DNA of 37,030 nucleotides from Gallionella sp. (GTDB lineage Bacteria; Pseudomonadota; Gammaproteobacteria; Burkholderiales; Gallionellaceae): assembly GCA_030645775.1 (NCBI GenBank), contig JAUSLX010000057.1:1-37030 (forward strand). The letters run 5' to 3'. The notes under the pieces were generated by a model that saw nothing but the letters and a program-made list of their open reading frames with translations, was not told the origin of the DNA and did no database searches. Made by a program: the position numbers and the translations under genes. The stretch's first letter is position 1, and every line of letters begins with the position of its first letter. This document shows, one piece after another, positions 13,478-23,134 of this stretch.

Positions 13478-14257
13478 TTAGCCGAAACGACCTGTAATGT
13501 AGTCTTCGGTTTCCTTGCGTTTCGGATTGGTGAATACCGTGCTGGTATCGCCGAATTCCATCAGGTCACCCAGGTACATGTAAGCGGTGTAGTCGGAGAC
13601 GCGCGCAGCTTGTTGCATGTTATGGGTGACGATGACGATGGTGAAGTCTTCTTTCAGCTCGTCTATCAATTTTTCAATATGGGCGGTGGAAATCGGGTCG
13701 AGTGCCGAGGTGGGCTCATCGAGCAGCAGTACTTCCGGCTTGACGGCGATGGCGCGCGCGATGCACAGACGCTGTTGCTGACCACCGGAAAGCCCCATGC
13801 CGCTCTGTGTCAGCTTGTCCTTGACTTCATCCCATAGCGCCGCCTTGCGTAACGCCCATTCGACTCGCTCTTCCATGTCATTCTTGTTCAAACTCTGATA
13901 GAGCTTTACACCGAACGCGATGTTGTCGTGTATGGACATCGGAAATGGGGTGGGCTTCTGGAATACCATGCCGACCTTTGCGCGCAGCTTGTTAAGGTCC
14001 TGGTTTTTATCAAGAATGTTTTTACCATCGAGGACGATGGAACCCGTGGCTTTTTGCTTCGGGTAAAGCTCGTACATGCGGTTAAAAGTACGCAGCAGGG
14101 TGGATTTTCCGCAGCCGGACGGGCCGATGAAAGCCGTCACCTTTTTTTCTGTGATGTCCAGATTGATATTGTTCAGGGCCTGTGCTTTGCCGTAATAAAA
14201 GTTGAGGTCTCTGACAGTGACTCTGGGTTTGACGATGTTTTCAGCGTTCATTTGCAA
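13478..14257 (-). CDS. pstB: Phosphate ABC transporter ATP-binding protein PstB
   Basis: PstB (259 aa) hydrolyses ATP to drive high-affinity phosphate import by PstSCAB. Walker A (GPSGCGKST), the ABC signature (LSGGQQQR), Walker B ([11 protein letters not shown]) and the switch His (VTHNMQQA) are all present. The start is 6 bases after the pstA stop. It is the last gene of the operon here: the terminator and a convergent gene follow, so phoU, often next to pstB, is not in this cluster. Confidence 0.97.
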
Positions 14258-14263
14258 GCCTTG

Positions 14264-15112
14264 TTAATGTGTTGAAGCTTTTTGACGGAATAGCACGCGT
14301 GCCAGAATATTGAGCGTCAGCACACTCATGGTAATCAGCAGTGCGCCTGCCCAGGCCAGACTCTGCCAGTCTTCGTAGGGACTCATGGCGAACTGGAAGA
14401 TGACGACTGGTAAATTGGCCATCGGTTGGTCCATGTCGCTGCTCCAGAACTGGTTGTTGAGTGCGGTGAATAACAACGGTGCGGTCTCGCCGCTGATGCG
14501 CGCGATGGCCAGCATCACACCGGTGATAATTCCGGCACGAGCGGCACGCAGCGTGACGAAACTGATGATTTTCCATTGAGGCGCGCCGAGAGAGGCAGCG
14601 GCTTCACGCAAGGTGCTGGGCACCAGTCGCAACATGTTTTCTGTGGTGCGTATCACGATGGGAATCACGATGATAGCCAGGGCAATGGTGCCAGCCCAAC
14701 CGGAAAAATGTTTGACGTGCACGACATAAACTTCGTAGACAAACAAGCCGATGACGATGGACGGAGCGGACAGCAGAATGTCGTTGATGAAGCGTGTAAT
14801 GGGAGCCAGCCAGCCGCGCTGGCCGAATTCAGCCAGATAGGTTCCTGCCAGAATACCGATAGGCGTACCGATTGCGGTGCCGCCTATGGTCATCATCAAG
14901 CTACCGAAGATGGCATTCAACAGACCGCCTGAACTGCCAGGTGGCGGAGTCATCTGCGAAAATACCATCGGGGTCAGTGCGGGCAGACCCCGGTCCAGCA
15001 AGGTCCATAAAATCCAGCATAACCAGAACAGGCCGAATGCCATGGCTGCTACTGCGATGGTCAGGCCCGTTGCGTTGGCGATGCGGCGACGTGTGTATAG
15101 ATCGATCATCAT
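14264..15112 (-). CDS. pstA: Phosphate ABC transporter permease PstA
   Basis: PstA (282 aa) is one of two membrane permeases of the phosphate importer. It has six predicted helices and the binding-protein-dependent transport loop ([20 protein letters not shown]) that contacts PstB. The family pattern [21 protein letters not shown] is visible. The ATG lies 2 bases after the pstC stop region, implying co-translation. Confidence 0.96.
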
Positions 15113-15114
15113 GA

Positions 15115-16077
15115 TTACGCTGCCTTTCCTTCGCGCTGCCCAAGCTTGTAGAGCATGTAACGTGCGAGTGATAACACTACAAAAGTAATAAAGAACAAGA
15201 TCAGGCCAAGCTCGATCAGCGCGGCGGTGTATAGCTCGCCGAATGCTTCGGTGAATTCGTTGGCCAGTGCCGAGGAAATACTGTTGCCCGGATTCAGCAG
15301 GGATTTGCCCAGTTCATGGGCATTGCCGATTACGAAAGTGACCGCCATGGTTTCACCCAGCGCGCGTCCCAGTCCCAGCATGATGCCGCCAGCCACACCG
15401 ACCTTGGTGTAGGGCAATACAATCCTCAACATGACTTCCCAGGTGGTGGAGCCGAGACCGTAAGCGGATTCCTTGAGCATGACAGGGACGACGTCAAATA
15501 CATCGCGCATCACTGAAGCGATGAACGGGATGACCATGATGGCGAGTATGATGCTGGCGGTCAGGATGCCTATGCCCATAGGCGGGCCGGAGAAGAAGGG
15601 GCCGATGTAGGGTAGAACGCCGATATGTTCGTTGAGCCAGGGTTCGACATGGTCGGCGAACAGTGGTGCAAAGACAAACAAGCCCCACATGCCGTAGATG
15701 ATGCTGGGAATACCCGCCAGCAGTTCAATGGCAACGCCGAGCGGGCGACGTAATACGCGCGGTGATAGCTCAGTGAGAAAGAGTGCGATCCCGAAGCTCA
15801 CCGGAATGGCAATAAGCAGCGCGATACCGGAAGTGATGAGTGTGCCGACGATAGGAACCAGCGCGCCGAATTGATCGTTGACCGGATCCCAGTCAGGGCT
15901 GATCAGAAAGCCGAAGCCGAAGGCGTGAATGGCGGGCATGCTGCCGATGACCAGCGAGCCTATAATCGCCGCGAGCAGGACCAGTACGCTAAAAGCGGCT
16001 ACGCGTGTCAGATTGCGGAACAGCGAATCGAAGATGGATTGCCTTTTCAGGCGTGCTTCGTGTAAAAACATCGACAT
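15115..16077 (-). CDS. pstC: Phosphate ABC transporter permease PstC
   Basis: PstC (320 aa) pairs with PstA to form the phosphate channel. It carries a cytoplasmic N-terminus, six helices, the conserved [15 protein letters not shown] and the coupling loop [20 protein letters not shown]. It lies 113 bases downstream of pstS, and that gap contains a strong hairpin, which probably lowers its expression relative to pstS. Confidence 0.96.
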
Positions 16078-16190: not shown

Positions 16191-17240
16191 TTATTTCCAG
16201 ATTGCCTTGCCCTCTGTGCTTTTGATTTGTGCCTTCCACGCGCTGCGGATCAATTTCACCACATCGTCAGGGATAGGTACATAGTCCAGATCGGAAGCCA
16301 GTTTGCCGCCATTGGCATATGCCCAGTCAAAGAACTTCAGCACGGCCAGAGCGGATTCAGGTTTTTCCTGCATCTTGTGTACCAAGATGAACGTTGCGCC
16401 GCTGATAGGCCAGCTTCCCTTGCCGGCTTCGTCAGTCAGAATTTCGTAAAAGCCCGGTGCCTTGGTCCATTCCGCACCGGCAGCGGCGGCCTTGAAGCTG
16501 GCTTCATCTGCGCCGACAAAGTTGCCGGAACGGTTCTTCATTTGCACGGCGTTCATCTTGTTCTGCAAAGCGTAGGCGTATTCTACATAACCGATAGAAC
16601 CCTTGATGCGCTGCACATAAGACGCGACACCTTCGTTACCCTTGCCGCCGGTACCGGCTTTCCAGGAAACGGCTGTCCCTTCGCCTACCGTGGATTTCCA
16701 GTCAGCGCTTACCTTGGACAGGTAGTTGGTGAAAATGAAGCTGGTGCCGGAACCATCAGAACGATGCACTACGGTGATGATGTCGTCAGGCAGTTTGATG
16801 TCTTTGTTCAGTGCCGCAATGGCCGGGTCATTCCACTTGGTGATCTTGCCCAGATAGATGTCAGCCAGCGTTGTGCCATCCAGTTTCAAATTTCCGCTGC
16901 TGATGCCAGCGACGTTGATGACCGGTACTACGCCGCCTATGATGGTCGGAAACTGCATCAGGCCGTGTTTTTCGAGATCTTGTGGTTTCAGTGGCATGTC
17001 TGATGCGCCGAAATCAACGGTTTTTGCAGTAATCTGCTTGATGCCGCCACCGGAACCGATGGATTGGTAGTTCATGCTGATGCCGGTTTGTGTCTTGTAA
17101 GCTTCAGCCCATTTGGCGTAAGCAGGATACGGGAAAGTCGCGCCGGCACCGGTGATGTCGGTGGCGTAGCTGATGCTGGCGTAAGCCAGTGCAGTGGTTG
17201 CGGCGAGGGTAATAACGAGTTGCTTGAGTTTGCTATTCAT
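16191..17240 (-). CDS. pstS: Periplasmic phosphate-binding protein PstS
   Basis: PstS (349 aa) captures phosphate in the periplasm and delivers it to PstCA. A signal peptide (LKQLVITLAATTALAYASISYA) is followed by ITGAGATFPYPAYAKWAEAY. Phosphate-contacting motifs SIGSGGGIKQI, DFGASDMPL and HRSDGSGTSFIFTNYLS are present. It is first in the operon and lies behind a PhoB-like box. A hairpin separates it from pstC. Confidence 0.97.
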   Translation of the reverse strand: MNSKLKQLVITLAATTALAYASISYATDITGAGATFPYPAYAKWAEAYKTQTGISMNYQSIGSGGGIKQITAKTVDFGASDMPLKPQDLEKHGLMQFPTIIGGVVPVINVAGISSGNLKLDGTTLADIYLGKITKWNDPAIAALNKDIKLPDDIITVVHRSDGSGTSFIFTNYLSKVSADWKSTVGEGTAVSWKAGTGGKGNEGVASYVQRIKGSIGYVEYAYALQNKMNAVQMKNRSGNFVGADEASFKAAAAGAEWTKAPGFYEILTDEAGKGSWPISGATFILVHKMQEKPESALAVLKFFDWAYANGGKLASDLDYVPIPDDVVKLIRSAWKAQIKSTEGKAIWK

Positions 17241-17335: not shown

Positions 17336-17369
17336 ATCTTAATTACCTTATGTGACAGAATTATTACAA
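17336..17369 (-). promoter_or_regulatory. PhoB box and -10 element upstream of pstS
   Basis: On the minus strand TTGTAAT and CTGTCAC are spaced as two 11-bp PhoB half-units (17347-17369), matching CTGTCAT-N4-CTGTCAT at 5 and 6 of 7 positions. A TAAGAT hexamer (17336-17341) follows 10 bases after the second unit, the usual PhoB-activated layout. The untranslated leader to pstS is about 90 bases. Confidence 0.65.
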
Positions 17370-17402: not shown

Positions 17403-19295
17403 TTACCAATGAAGTCGCCTTAGCAGTGCGCTCTTCTTTTTCTGGTGGGATTGCATGCGATGCAGGATGTCGTCCAATGTCTGGATTGCCTCAATAATAT
17501 GCGCGCCCTTGTTCAACATGACGCATTCGGCACGCACACCCATGGCTGCATCGGTAATTTCAGCGCGACTCGGTTTGCCGTTTTTGGATAATCCCTCCAG
17601 CACCTGGGTAGCCCATATCACCGGCAAATGAGCCGCTTCGGCCAACCAGAGAATTTCTTCCTGCAACTCGGCCATTCTTTCGTAACCACACTCCACCGCC
17701 AGATCGCCGCGAGCAATCATGACGCCGACGGTTGATGAGCGCAATAATGTGAATAATAGTTCCGGCAGATGCTCGAATGCGGCGCGCGTTTCGATTTTTA
17801 GCACGATGCCAAGCTTCCCCGCATTAAGGCGTTTCAGATGTTTTTGCAATAACTCAATGTCAGCGGAATGGCGCACGAATGAAAGTCCGACCATATCGGC
17901 ATTTTGAACGACAAATTCCAGGTGTTCGATGTCTTGAGCCGTCAGACCATCCAGCACAAGTCGGCTGTCCGGCAGGTTGATGCCCTTATTGGCCAGTAGT
18001 TTCTCACCGCCTTTGCGGGCCTGTGTGATCTCGACCACGATTTCTTTTTTGCTCGCACTGCGGATTAGGCCGCCGATTCTGCCATCGTCGATCAGGATGC
18101 GTTCACCTGGTTGAACGGCGCGAAAAATCTCCGGCAGGGAACAGGAAATGCTGGCAGCGCGCAGCAAATTCCCGTTGCTATCGAATTGAGCCGGCATGCC
18201 CGGTAATGGCTCACGCGTGACGATCAAATGGTCTCCGTGGTGAAGTCGGATTTGTTCGGGGGTCGGAGGCAGTGCCCCGACATTGCCGGTACGACCCGCC
18301 CGGCGCGTTTGACCGGATGACGAGAGTCGCAGCAGTCTAAGCTCCATGCCGGGCGTGATATAGGTGGTCTGGCTGGATTCTGCCCAAAATCCGCCCCCGA
18401 TCTGTTCAACCAGTTTCAACGTGCGGGAGGCCCCCCTTGCGTCGGTAAATTCAATGATGTCGCGAGAGGTTGCCAGTGTGAGCCAATCCTCATCGACAGG
18501 AAGGTAAGCATTAGCGAGAGGCGGACAGGAAGAATCATCGCCTTCGGGGTGCAGCCATATCCGTGCGGGTGCAGTCACATTGCCATAGGTGTCCCGCTGT
18601 GGCTGCCATTTGAGTACGGCAGGCCTGAGCGCAATTTCACCCGTGCGCAACTTGGGCCCACCCAAGTCCATCAGTATGCGGCAGTGCCTGCCTGTTTCAC
18701 TGCGGGCCAGATTGATTTGTTCAATCATGCGCGCCCATATTTCCAGATTGTCGTGCGCGCAGTTGATACGCGCACAATCCATGCCGTGAACGAGCATGTC
18801 TTTGATCAATGAATAATCATCTGCTACTTCACCTGGCAAGGTGACCATGATGCGGACACGGCGACCTGAGGGGGGCTTGCCAAGCAAATTGCTGGTATTG
18901 TTTTCAAGCAGGGTTGCACCCGTTGGGGTTGAAGTGGGTATTATTTCATCTGCCGACTGCTTGCCTAACGCGCAACGCAAAAGGTCAATGATGGCAGTGA
19001 GGTTGGTGAAGACATGCGATTCCATGCGACCTAATGATGACAACCCTACCACTGCCAGTCTTTCCTGCAGCGACCGCATATCTCGCCGCCTCAGGCCAAG
19101 GTAGTGAATCAGATTGATGGCGCTTGCCAGATGGAGTGGATTTATAAGTAGCTGTGTTTTTGCAGAGAGATGCTCAACCTCCATTATCTCATCCAGCAAT
19201 CCCTCCAATTCATGCAATAAGCCATAGTAAGGATGCACATCACGGGCCTGGTGTGAGATTGATGGTTCTTTCGGGTTTTGTATGCTCGTACGCAC
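17403..19295 (-). CDS. Atypical pyruvate-kinase-like protein with N-terminal extension
   Basis: The 630-aa protein has a pyruvate kinase barrel from about residue 147: ARINCAH near 175, LGGPKLRTGE near 211, DDGRIGG near 403, the Mg/K site VLKIETR near 498, VMIARGDLAVE near 525, ATQVLE near 562 and PSRAEITDAA near 575. Pyruvate kinase makes pyruvate and ATP from PEP and ADP. Differences are striking: a ~145-residue helical N-terminal domain of unknown role, a B-domain region near 180 residues instead of about 100, and no C-terminal allosteric domain. Some consensus positions differ (CAH for FSH). It may be a real kinase or a regulatory homologue. It follows the LpxH-like gene by 60 bases. Confidence 0.8.
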   Translation of the reverse strand: MRTSIQNPKEPSISHQARDVHPYYGLLHELEGLLDEIMEVEHLSAKTQLLINPLHLASAINLIHYLGLRRRDMRSLQERLAVVGLSSLGRMESHVFTNLTAIIDLLRCALGKQSADEIIPTSTPTGATLLENNTSNLLGKPPSGRRVRIMVTLPGEVADDYSLIKDMLVHGMDCARINCAHDNLEIWARMIEQINLARSETGRHCRILMDLGGPKLRTGEIALRPAVLKWQPQRDTYGNVTAPARIWLHPEGDDSSCPPLANAYLPVDEDWLTLATSRDIIEFTDARGASRTLKLVEQIGGGFWAESSQTTYITPGMELRLLRLSSSGQTRRAGRTGNVGALPPTPEQIRLHHGDHLIVTREPLPGMPAQFDSNGNLLRAASISCSLPEIFRAVQPGERILIDDGRIGGLIRSASKKEIVVEITQARKGGEKLLANKGINLPDSRLVLDGLTAQDIEHLEFVVQNADMVGLSFVRHSADIELLQKHLKRLNAGKLGIVLKIETRAAFEHLPELLFTLLRSSTVGVMIARGDLAVECGYERMAELQEEILWLAEAAHLPVIWATQVLEGLSKNGKPSRAEITDAAMGVRAECVMLNKGAHIIEAIQTLDDILHRMQSHQKKKSALLRRLHW

Positions 19296-19355
19296 GATGA
19301 TTCTCAGTCAATAAAAAGTCAATTGACCGCATTCTAGGCGCGTTAGATTGAAGAA

Positions 19356-20111
19356 TTATGACGGATTGCTGGTTTTGCGATCCCAGACGATGAGTTCCAT
19401 TTCGCCATTCAGGTGTTCGACGATAGCCGTGCAACTGTCAACCCAATCACCGCAGTTCATATAAGTCAGGCCGCCGATATCCTTGATGTTGGGCCAATGA
19501 ATGTGGCCGCAGATTACGCCATCCAGTTTGTTTTCACGGGCGTGGCGAATAAGCGCATCCTCAAAGTCAAAGATGAAATTAACCGCTTTTTTGATCTTGC
19601 GCTTGGCATATCCGGCCAGAGACCAATAACCCGGGCGGCGCAAGGAACGGCGCAGCCAGGATAGCCAGATGTTGATCCTGACCAGAAAGTTATAGAGGAC
19701 ATCTCCGAGCAGAGCGACCCATTTGTAGTGACGCGTTACCTGGTCGAATGCATCGCCATGGATCAGCAAAAATTTCCGCCCTGTTGCAGTCACATGAGTG
19801 TGCGTCAGCTCGATTTGAATGCCGCCAAACGAAGTGCCGGCATATTCCCGAACCACCTCATCGTGATTCCCGGGTATGAACATGACTGTTTCACCATGCC
19901 GCGCCCGTTTGAGTATTTTTTGCAGTACTGTGTTGTGATCTGCGCTCCAATACAGACCGCTACGGCTTATTTGCCAAAAATCAACGATGTCCCCCAGCAG
20001 AAACAGGTTCTCGGCAGGATGGTCGCGCAAAAAATCAAGCAGGCGGTCCGCCTGGCAGGCACGGGTACCCAAATGCACATCAGATATAAATATGGAACGG
20101 ACGGGTGGCAT
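19356..20111 (-). CDS. LpxH-like metallophosphoesterase (UDP-2,3-diacylglucosamine diphosphatase family)
   Basis: This 251-aa calcineurin-like phosphoesterase has all five metal motifs: SDVHLG, GDIVDFW, GNHDE, IHGDAFD and GHIHWP. LpxH removes UMP from UDP-2,3-diacylglucosamine in lipid A synthesis. This protein keeps the ordinary GNHDE where E. coli LpxH has GNRDF, and has a basic amphipathic insert (LSWLRRSLRRPGYW), so it belongs to the LpxH-like side branch and may act on another lipid. Its ATG is 4 bases after the stop of a 46-aa ORF and has no clear ribosome binding site, so translation is probably coupled. Confidence 0.82.
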   Translation of the reverse strand: MPPVRSIFISDVHLGTRACQADRLLDFLRDHPAENLFLLGDIVDFWQISRSGLYWSADHNTVLQKILKRARHGETVMFIPGNHDEVVREYAGTSFGGIQIELTHTHVTATGRKFLLIHGDAFDQVTRHYKWVALLGDVLYNFLVRINIWLSWLRRSLRRPGYWSLAGYAKRKIKKAVNFIFDFEDALIRHARENKLDGVICGHIHWPNIKDIGGLTYMNCGDWVDSCTAIVEHLNGEMELIVWDRKTSNPS

Positions 20112-20115
20112 GGGT

Positions 20116-20256
20116 CTATATGGATGTTATCAAGGAGGAAATTGCCGGTAAGGCGACGATGATCGTCAGGGTGCAGACTACCCCCCAGCGCACGATTTTG
20201 AAAAAGAGTTGCAAGTAATTTCTCGTTTTATGAACACGATAATCGCGTGGCATCAT
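20116..20256 (-). CDS. 46-aa single-span membrane peptide between the OlsB-like and LpxH-like genes
   Basis: This frame is below the track's size limit. Its ATGATG overlaps the TGA of the OlsB-like gene (ATGA arrangement), and its TAG ends 4 bases before the LpxH-like ATG. The product begins MMPRDYRVHKTRNYLQLFFK, a basic N-terminus, followed by a hydrophobic helix (VVCTLTIIVALPAISSLITSI), consistent with a cytoplasmic N-terminus and one membrane span. No family is recognised. The exact fit between two coupled genes is the main argument that it is translated; it could also serve mainly to carry ribosomes across the gap. Confidence 0.6.
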   Translation of the reverse strand: MMPRDYRVHKTRNYLQLFFKIVRWGVVCTLTIIVALPAISSLITSI

Positions 20257-21002
20257 TTAAGGAAATGCCTGGCATAACGGTCATTCATGCGTGACATCGG
20301 CAGCAGGATTAACAAGTCTGCAGTGTTGAATTCCGGGTCCCATGCCGGTTCGCCGCAAATATAAGCGCCCAGTCGCAAGTAGCCTTTGAGCAACGGCGGG
20401 ACAGGCGCATCGAGATACTGGTTCAGGGCGTGCAGCGGTAACGGACAACGGGGGAACACGCTGTATTCAACTGGTGCGCCGTATACTCTGTGCAATTTGC
20501 GATAGAGGCTGGCGGCGACATGACCACCGTCTGCCATACTGATACTGGCGCAGCCAATCAGATACTCGTGACTGTAGCGCTGCATGTATTGAGCCAGACC
20601 GCCCCACAGTTGAGTGATCGTCCCGCCATCGCGGTAATCCCGGTGCACACAGGAACGTCCCACTTCAACCATGCTGGCACTGAGATGCAGTAATCGGGTT
20701 ATATCAAATTCGGTCTGTGCATAGTAGCCGCCGATTTTCTGCGCCTGATTGGGTGAGAGGATGCGATAAGTCCCGACGACTTTATTCTCGTCGCTTTCGC
20801 GCACGATCAGATGTTCGCAGTATTTATCGAATATATCGCGGTCGATTTCTTCTTTTGCGCTGGGCAGGTTGGCACCCATTTCTTCGGCAAACACCTTGTA
20901 GCGCAAACGTTGCGCTTCCAGTACTTCGGCATGGCTATGTGCCAGTGTGGTGATTAGTCGTCGTTGAACGACAGGGTGATTTTGTCGGTTGAGTTCCAGC
21001 AT
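20253..21002 (-). CDS. olsB: OlsB-like N-acyltransferase (GNAT fold, hemolysin-like)
   Basis: OlsB transfers a 3-hydroxyacyl chain from ACP to the amine of ornithine, making lyso-ornithine lipid. The protein shows the family pattern RLRYKVFAEEMGA, EHLIVRESDENKVVGTYRIL, EVGRSCVHRDYRDGGTITQLW and a C-terminal LPMSRMNDRYARHFL. I prefer ATG 21002 (249 aa) because AGG lies 8 bases upstream; the track start is a GTG nine bases earlier. A PlsC-type gene 88 bases upstream could supply the second (OlsA) step. The amine substrate could be ornithine or another amino acid. Confidence 0.85.
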   Translation of the reverse strand: MLELNRQNHPVVQRRLITTLAHSHAEVLEAQRLRYKVFAEEMGANLPSAKEEIDRDIFDKYCEHLIVRESDENKVVGTYRILSPNQAQKIGGYYAQTEFDITRLLHLSASMVEVGRSCVHRDYRDGGTITQLWGGLAQYMQRYSHEYLIGCASISMADGGHVAASLYRKLHRVYGAPVEYSVFPRCPLPLHALNQYLDAPVPPLLKGYLRLGAYICGEPAWDPEFNTADLLILLPMSRMNDRYARHFLK

Positions 21003-21090
21003 TGCATCCACCTGTTGGTTTGAAGATGTTTGCAGATTACGGAGCGCCTGTTGCAGCGCGATGACGGGAATATGAAGAAAGTGTTAACGG

Positions 21091-21954
21091 TTATCTGGGT
21101 GTCTGACCCATGTCCTGGCTGATCAGCAACGCGTAGGCTGACTGGGATGAGAGAATCTCTTGATTAGGGCTGATTTGCTCCGGTTTTCGTTTATGCGGAG
21201 CGATGTTTGCCAATTTCAGTGCGATGGCTTGTTGGGCAGCACGTGACAGCACACGGCGATTCTCGTTGCTAGTTATCAATGCGGGAGTGAATATAACGAG
21301 TGAGTTAAGCTGTTGACAGCACAGAATCTGCCAGATGGATTGCGCAAGGGTTGTGTCACCGGTGAAAGCCGCCGCTGTGCTCAGTTCGCCTGCTTCATCC
21401 CGGTAGTGCAGTGCAATCGGGCACAGACTGACCCCTGCATCAACCGCAGGCTGGATGAGTGCCGAGTGGAAGTGGCCGACCTGCTTGCCGTCCGTGGTGG
21501 TGCCCTCGGGGAATAGCCCTACACTAACGCCTTGATTAAGCAGCGTGCTGATGCGCTGATTGATCGAGGCTGCATTTTGGCGCAGGGAACGTTCAATGAA
21601 AATAGTGCCGCTGCGTTCGCATAGCCAACCGATCAGTGGCCAGCTGCGGACTTCCGATTTGGCAATAAACAGTGAGGGATGAATCGCATTCAGCACGAAA
21701 ATGTCCAGCCATGAGACATGGTTGGCGACCATCAGACAACCCGTTCCGTCGCGCGCAGGCGGCAGCCCATCGATCTGGATACCAATATTGAGGATGCCCA
21801 ATATTTGTCTGCTCCAGTTTTTCAGGGTGCGGCGTTGCCGCGCCTGATCCATGAATGGATAAAACAGCGCCAGCAACATCCCGTGCAAGAGGTGCAGTGC
21901 GAGGCGGCAGCCACGGAATACGCTGACCAGTCTGTTCGGCGAGCGCTTAACCAT
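21091..21954 (-). CDS. Lysophospholipid acyltransferase (PlsC/OlsA-like)
   Basis: The real gene starts at ATG 21954 (MVKRSPNRLVSVFRGCRLAL), overlapping the stop of the GGDEF gene by 8 bases; the 444-aa track ORF reads back through that gene out of frame. The 287-aa product has an N-terminal membrane helix and the acyltransferase motifs NHVSWLD (HX4D), FIERS, and FPEGTTTDG. Such enzymes acylate 1-acyl-glycerol-3-phosphate or, as OlsA, lyso-ornithine lipid. The neighbouring OlsB-like gene favours the OlsA role, but PlsC activity is not excluded. The C-terminus (about 50 residues) is poorly conserved-looking. Confidence 0.85.
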   Translation of the reverse strand: MVKRSPNRLVSVFRGCRLALHLLHGMLLALFYPFMDQARQRRTLKNWSRQILGILNIGIQIDGLPPARDGTGCLMVANHVSWLDIFVLNAIHPSLFIAKSEVRSWPLIGWLCERSGTIFIERSLRQNAASINQRISTLLNQGVSVGLFPEGTTTDGKQVGHFHSALIQPAVDAGVSLCPIALHYRDEAGELSTAAAFTGDTTLAQSIWQILCCQQLNSLVIFTPALITSNENRRVLSRAAQQAIALKLANIAPHKRKPEQISPNQEILSSQSAYALLISQDMGQTPR

Positions 21955-23134
21955 AGCAGGCAATGTCGATTTCAGGCAGAGCCGATTCGCGCCGCTCGAT
22001 GAACAGGCTGTTGCCCGGTATTTTTTTGGCCATTTTCCGGGCGGCGCTAACCGCATCCGATACTTCGTGGTGCGAATCAAATCGGTCGGAACTGATCCAG
22101 ACCGCGCCAATCGTGAGCGTGGGTAGCGGGTGATGAACGATGCGACCTTGTCTGTCTTCCGTAAAATAGCCGCCGATCGAACGGTCTTCCTTGTCGAACA
22201 TTCTTGCTGACGTTTGTGCAAAGGCAGTGAGTGCCTGATTACAACGTAACGCCCAATCGGGGCTTTGCAGGACAAGAATAAAGTCATCACCGCCGATATG
22301 ACCGATAAAATCGCACTTTGAATCGCAGACCTTGCCGAGTAGCTTGCCGATAAACTGGATGAGTTCATCCCCCCTGTAATAGCCGTACTTATTGTTGAAG
22401 TGTTTGAAGTTGTCCAGGTCGCCATAACAGACAGCGAATGATTTGCCGGATTGAAGAAAATGTTCTATGTGTTCTTTGATCGGTACATTTCCGGGCAGCA
22501 AGGTCAATGGATTGGCATAGCGTGCTGTTTCGATATGTGCTTTGGTGATTTCACGCAACAGGTCTTGTCCGACGCCCAAACCGATATAGCGGCCTTGTTC
22601 GGTAATGATGAAACCGTCGGTAAAATGCCGGATGTCGGATTCGCTCAGGAATTCGCTCAACTCATGAATAGGGGTGGATTTTTCCACCAGCAGCGGTGCC
22701 TGATTCATTAGTTCGGCGCAGGTTTTTTTGCCGGGTAGTTCACGATGGAAAGGCTGTGCGAAACTATCGAAAAATTGATGTCGGTTAATCAACCCAACGG
22801 GATGCCCCTGCTCGACGACAGGGATGGAGCGCAAACTTTTGTCGGCGGAAAAGTGAGCGAATATTTTTTCAATCCCGGTGTCCGGCTGGAACGACTCTGC
22901 ATAACGTAACAGTGTTTCGACTGTGACGCTGCGTGAATTGCCCGGCGGTTGTTCAACGATGTTATTGGCGTTGGACAGGCAGTCGGCTTCGGCAGAAGCA
23001 CACGGCGGCGGGATGGGGGCGGGATGTGCGATCAAGTAGCTTTGTCCGCAGAAGATGTCTGCGTCGCGGAATTCTGCAATCGTATCTACACCTTTCTCAG
23101 CCATTTGTGTCATGCCTTTAAGTGTTTCCATCAT
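21947..23134 (-). CDS. CBS-pair and GGDEF-domain protein
   Basis: This 395-aa protein has a ~75-residue leader, then two CBS-like units (KSLRSIPVVEQGHPVGLINR; a second with MNQAPLLVEKSTPIHELSEF and GFIITEQGRYIGLGVG), then a GGDEF domain with YGDLDNFKHFNNKYG and the active-site IGGDDF. GGDEF proteins make cyclic di-GMP; CBS pairs bind adenine nucleotides. The usual RxxD inhibitory site before GGDDF reads SKCD and is lost. There is no EAL domain or membrane span. ATG 23134 has AGGG upstream. It opens the lipid operon and overlaps the acyltransferase start. Confidence 0.9.
   Translation of the reverse strand: MMETLKGMTQMAEKGVDTIAEFRDADIFCGQSYLIAHPAPIPPPCASAEADCLSNANNIVEQPPGNSRSVTVETLLRYAESFQPDTGIEKIFAHFSADKSLRSIPVVEQGHPVGLINRHQFFDSFAQPFHRELPGKKTCAELMNQAPLLVEKSTPIHELSEFLSESDIRHFTDGFIITEQGRYIGLGVGQDLLREITKAHIETARYANPLTLLPGNVPIKEHIEHFLQSGKSFAVCYGDLDNFKHFNNKYGYYRGDELIQFIGKLLGKVCDSKCDFIGHIGGDDFILVLQSPDWALRCNQALTAFAQTSARMFDKEDRSIGGYFTEDRQGRIVHHPLPTLTIGAVWISSDRFDSHHEVSDAVSAARKMAKKIPGNSLFIERRESALPEIDIACYG

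Follow-up and report, generated by a model that had tools for sequence, protein, structure and literature searches.

The 37,030-nucleotide stretch of Gallionella sp. DNA analysed here (the window) encodes a pyruvate kinase that we judge, with moderate confidence, to be an accessory, catalytically competent isozyme of the NF011314/Pyk2 type, PhoB-controlled in many Proteobacteria. Its build and the kind of enzyme are already known; what is new here is the hypothesis that ties its regulation to phosphate starvation. For a good part of the Proteobacteria, the evidence favours such a role in phosphate starvation.

The open reading frame lies exactly at the coordinates given in the first-pass annotation; it is on the minus strand and encodes 630 residues (Table 1). 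Pfam detects the pyruvate kinase barrel alone (E = 3e-48), and a Foldseek search with the predicted full-length structure (pLDDT 86) retrieves solved pyruvate kinases at about 1e-26, so the resemblance is not due to chance. The kinase passes the 642-bit cut-off of the model NF011314 (PRK14725, 'pyruvate kinase') with 761 bits, and its residues 23–629 align to model positions 15–608 of 614. The canonical model TIGR01064 scores 219 bits, below its cut-off of 306. Judged by this alignment, the architecture, whose N-terminal domain had been called new, is already catalogued, as the curated model NF011314 spans all of it. The name of the model is simply 'pyruvate kinase' and says nothing of phosphate or of a role as isozyme.

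A separate canonical pyruvate kinase of 487 residues is also encoded in the genome, a check that the first-pass annotation had proposed. Since the catalytic residues of the window kinase are kept as well, we regard it as an accessory isozyme. The specialised role suggested earlier draws support from this canonical enzyme and from the occurrence of the kinase in only part of the genus.

Table 1. Features of the window at and around the pyruvate kinase gene
Feature	Position	Strand	Basis or remark
Pyruvate kinase, NF011314/PRK14725-type (Pyk2-like), 630 aa, GTG start	17403..19295	-	NF011314, model, Foldseek
N-terminal all-helical domain, residues 1–146, conserved family-wide	18858..19295	-	no Pfam domain, no PDB fold match
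Enlarged B (lid) region, after RTG (residue 219) to KGIN (residue 437)	17988..18641	-	model, length comparison, hhalign
(beta/alpha)8 barrel, second part: K500/E502, R529-G530-D531, T563	17406..17987	-	no C domain follows
OlsA/PlsC-like acyltransferase	21091..22425	-	best model OlsA, 129 bits, below cut-off
OlsB-like ornithine N-acyltransferase (GNAT)	20253..21011	-	best model OlsB, 178 bits, below equivalog cut-off
Calcineurin-like phosphoesterase, PlcP-like candidate	19356..20111	-	LpxH-like, far below LpxH cut-off
PstS, phosphate-binding protein	16191..17240	-	461 bits, cut-off 339
pstC, pstA, pstB (three genes)	13478..16077	-	gene order, and homology to the Pst genes of related loci
PHO-box-like site CCGTCATAATTCTTCAAT upstream of kinase	19347..19364	-	score 12.0, moderate
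PHO-box-like site TTGTAATAATTCTGTCA between kinase and pstS	17353..17369	-	2 mismatches to consensus

Gene neighbourhood of the kinase

The kinase belongs to a series of same-strand genes transcribed in the order CBS-GGDEF, OlsA-like, OlsB-like, LpxH-like phosphoesterase, kinase and pstSCAB. The first-pass annotation had placed it at the end of a lipid operon. This description was helpful for the upstream side, where ornithine-lipid-like and PlcP-like genes are found, and incomplete for the downstream side, where pstSCAB come next and point to phosphate stress. The presumed lipid operon is more plausibly a phosphate-starvation island, with Ols-like genes, PlcP-like gene, kinase and pstSCAB on one strand. 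As mechanically called, the OlsA/PlsC-like reading frame overlaps that of the CBS-GGDEF protein by 479 bases (21091–23134); its acyltransferase domain begins only at residue 218, and the true start therefore probably lies well inside the frame.

The neighbouring phosphoesterase is unlikely to be LpxH. Sister genomes that share the gene encode a separate, true LpxH elsewhere (about 275–279 bits), which indicates an accessory enzyme; no true LpxH was found in the window's own assembly, which is 92% complete. Family resemblance and context make the protein plausibly PlcP-like. Enzymes known to remodel lipids in phosphorus starvation include PlcP and the glycosyltransferase Agt, and plcP clusters carry putative PHO boxes (PMC4796936).

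A lipid operon conserved throughout the family was rejected: the exact gene order is shared by just two near relatives, with a third matching in part. The closest Nitrosomonas/Nitrosospira orthologues lack the phosphate linkage.

PHO-box-like sites

PhoB is encoded in the genome of the window (TIGR02154, 352 bits, cut-off 296). We scored upstream regions with a PHO-box matrix built on six sites of E. coli. The site upstream of the kinase overlaps the stop codon of the preceding gene. Its score is moderate, a value of 12 or more being reached by 2 of 41 canonical kinase promoters as well, and its core is kept in a 90% relative and in a Sulfuritalea and a Nitrosomonas orthologue. The site between the kinase and pstS is strong and the top-scoring one of the island. 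Its position after the kinase and before pstS argues against a single transcript of kinase and pstSCAB, and the kinase is thus not simply part of the pst operon.

Among the validation genes, 16 of 58 have an upstream site scoring at least 12, compared with a mean of 0.6 and a maximum of 3 for 200 column-permuted matrices, and with the 2 of 41 canonical kinase promoters (p = 0.003). With the threshold raised to at least 13, the figures are 12 of 58 and 0 of 41, respectively (p = 0.001). The validation promoters also stand well above dinucleotide shuffles. Pooling all family loci, including those from phyla without an expected box, gives a weaker contrast (p = 0.04 at 12). Over all loci, most sites (19 of 26) have the orientation of the coding strand.

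Phosphate-gene linkage and distribution of the family

Genes that recur near family kinases encode Pst, PhoU, PPK, Ppx, OlsAB, and PlcP-like and Agt-like proteins. Phosphate/polyphosphate or lipid-remodelling genes lie near 19 of 81 discovery loci. Markers and thresholds were fixed after these loci and then applied to new genomes; sequences at least 80% identical were removed, and control regions were drawn from the carrier genomes. In the validation set, whose figure alone is free of hindsight, 6 of 25 loci have such genes nearby, against 0 of 51 control regions (p = 8e-4). Classical phosphate and polyphosphate markers alone account for 3 of the 25 (p = 0.03). Either phosphate signature, linkage or box, is present in only about a quarter of family members. 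In unrelated genomes, an Agt-like lipid glycosyltransferase gene directly adjoins the kinase on the same strand (L131:867-4095, L191:8924-12672); at two further loci the direct neighbours are polyphosphate kinase and exopolyphosphatase genes (L189:8902-14583, L196:8895-14483).

These data bear on a different explanation, by which the protein is an ordinary accessory pyruvate kinase for low oxygen or high glycolytic flux and its phosphate neighbours are coincidental in this lineage. Such a role would suit the majority of family members, which have no phosphate gene nearby, and the behaviour of Pyk2 of Corynebacterium glutamicum, which is induced 14-fold under oxygen deprivation and activated by FBP (PMC5112673). 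However, both the linkage and the PHO-box enrichment replicate in genomes outside the set from which the idea was formed, and no ldh-type gene was noted beside the window kinase. We therefore consider a low-oxygen or high-flux role unlikely, if still worth keeping in view, and prefer a response to phosphate starvation.

The distribution of the family is patchy. Matches above the NF011314 cut-off occur in 14 of 41 relatives, and among the genomes of wider groups in 8 of 399 (phylum), 27 of 369 (class) and 45 of 399 (order). Of 14 named control genomes, Corynebacterium glutamicum alone reaches the cut-off, with a match that we take, from the published description, to be Pyk2. Loci with a named source come from Nitrosomonadales, Acidobacteria, Planctomycetes and Bacteroidetes, among others, and the closest named relative of the window kinase belongs to a Gallionella MAG (96% identity). 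One genome (G007) has its orthologue broken into two reading frames of 365 and 267 residues (L045:8062-10952), through either decay of the copy or an error of assembly; here the phosphoesterase adjoins the split kinase on the other side. Two genomes (G008 and G038) each carry two differing family copies in differing contexts. Weaker family matches are also carried by two IMG/VR contigs labelled viral (L150, L151), which are possibly host DNA.

Catalytic core and additional domains

The catalytic residues of the barrel (R176, N178, D210, K500, E502, D531 and T563) are all conserved. The Lys/Glu pair and the ARGDL motif reported previously were located at K500 and E502 and at residues 528–532, and the key residues are invariant in an alignment of 14 diverse family members. 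Two alterations near the active site are found family-wide: RINCAH replaces the canonical R(F/V)NFSH, and MLNKG, with a deletion of four residues, replaces MLSAE(S/T)AxG. After the barrel, the chain ends with a long final helix (residues 600–629); the C domain is absent by Pfam and from the predicted model, in agreement with the truncation described before.

At the other end of the chain, the roughly 145 extra residues that had been read as helical are indeed all helical in a confident model (residues 1–145). Modelled alone, this domain (about 145 aa) reaches a pLDDT of 90, and a search for fold relatives in the PDB found none (best E = 2.6).

The B region, counted from RTG to KGIN, comprises 217 residues, compared with exactly 78 in nine canonical kinases. 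The enlargement noted by the first-pass annotation is thereby borne out, while its size, given as nearly twice the normal, was understated at what is about 2.8 times. The extra lid segment of about 129 residues is beta-rich and is followed by an ordinary B barrel. Because hhalign finds a weak alignment between this segment and the B barrel (probability 89, E = 2e-6), it is possibly a degenerate duplicate, which suggests, without proof, that the lid was duplicated and then decayed. Alphaproteobacterial short-B relatives (L066-L069, about 490–515 aa) share the N domain and the C-terminal truncation with the window kinase and do not contain the extra segment; the lid enlargement is thus a separate modular feature of one branch. 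A strong PHO-box-like site lies upstream of one of these four relatives (L066).

The altered loops raise the question of whether the protein is a phosphate-responsive enzyme with an unusual phosphoryl donor, acceptor or allosteric effector, such as another nucleotide, or a phosphate or polyphosphate signal to which the N domain or the extra lid segment would respond. RINCAH and the shortened MLNKG loop would be in line with such a function, as would the large lid insertion and an N domain without known fold relative. However, the core residues for PEP, metal and phosphoryl transfer are all kept, and Pyk2 works with PEP and ADP and can stand in for the canonical enzyme in vivo (PMC5112673), which makes unusual substrates or effectors improbable. 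A catalytically dead or purely regulatory protein, to which the accessory status beside a canonical enzyme and the altered loops might point, is highly improbable, since diverse members strictly conserve the catalytic residues and a relative is active (PMC5112673).

A putative phosphate-starvation isozyme

For the favoured phosphate-starvation isozyme we propose that the barrel and the lid (B) domain perform the chemistry as in any pyruvate kinase, and by analogy with its characterised relative the window kinase would convert PEP and ADP to pyruvate and ATP. The helical N-terminal domain would probably assume the assembly role of the absent C domain; Pyk2 is apparently a hexamer, and the window kinase may form one too. 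Such an isozyme would be retained for particular circumstances. For many Proteobacteria, the Gallionella-like bacterium of the window among them, this would most likely be phosphate starvation, under which PhoB would induce the kinase alongside Pst uptake, polyphosphate enzymes and the synthesis of phosphate-free lipids. Control by PhoB is suggested by gene linkage and motif statistics, and in the window by a moderate box. The kinase would presumably be of benefit under low phosphate. On the broader proposition that the Proteobacterial NF011314 kinases constitute a phosphate-starvation isozyme class, PhoB-controlled and linked to Pst/PhoU, polyphosphate kinase/exopolyphosphatase and phosphate-free lipid genes, we are evenly divided.

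If the tie to phosphate is true, cells would exchange the isozyme of the last step of glycolysis, a core enzyme, when phosphate is scarce. It would also make testable the question of why many bacteria keep a second pyruvate kinase devoid of the C domain. No report of a Pho-regulated pyruvate kinase was found in a literature search that covered a minority of subscription journals.

Comparison with known pyruvate kinases

With the canonical TIGR01064 enzymes (PykF, PykA, PKM), the window kinase shares the pyruvate kinase barrel, the catalytic residues and the fold. It differs from them by the extra N domain, a B region of 217 instead of 78 residues and the lack of a C domain. The claim that its layout is unlike that of normal pyruvate kinases therefore holds against PykF and PykA and fails against NF011314/PRK14725 and C. 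glutamicum Pyk2, which have the same layout. Within NF011314, where the N domain, the long B region and the absence of the C domain recur, there is no structural difference.

The characterised point of reference is Pyk2 (NCgl2809), an active pyruvate kinase in vitro and, by complementation, in vivo (PMC5112673). It has an N extension of 120 residues, an A domain at 128–213 and 346–606, and no C domain, and is apparently hexameric by size (PMC5112673). By this description, Pyk2 resembles the window kinase in its N extension of about 120 residues, its split A domain with about 132 residues between the halves, its missing C domain and its status as accessory to a canonical kinase. Pyk2 depends on Mn and K and is activated by FBP without a C domain (PMC5112673). 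The earlier statement that the window kinase has no allosteric domain is thus literally true, yet a missing C domain does not equal missing regulation. We know of no phosphate response of Pyk2. There is a difference in genomic setting: whereas pyk2 shows linkage to ldhA and induction under oxygen deprivation (PMC5112673), the window gene lies between ornithine-lipid/PlcP-like genes and pstSCAB.
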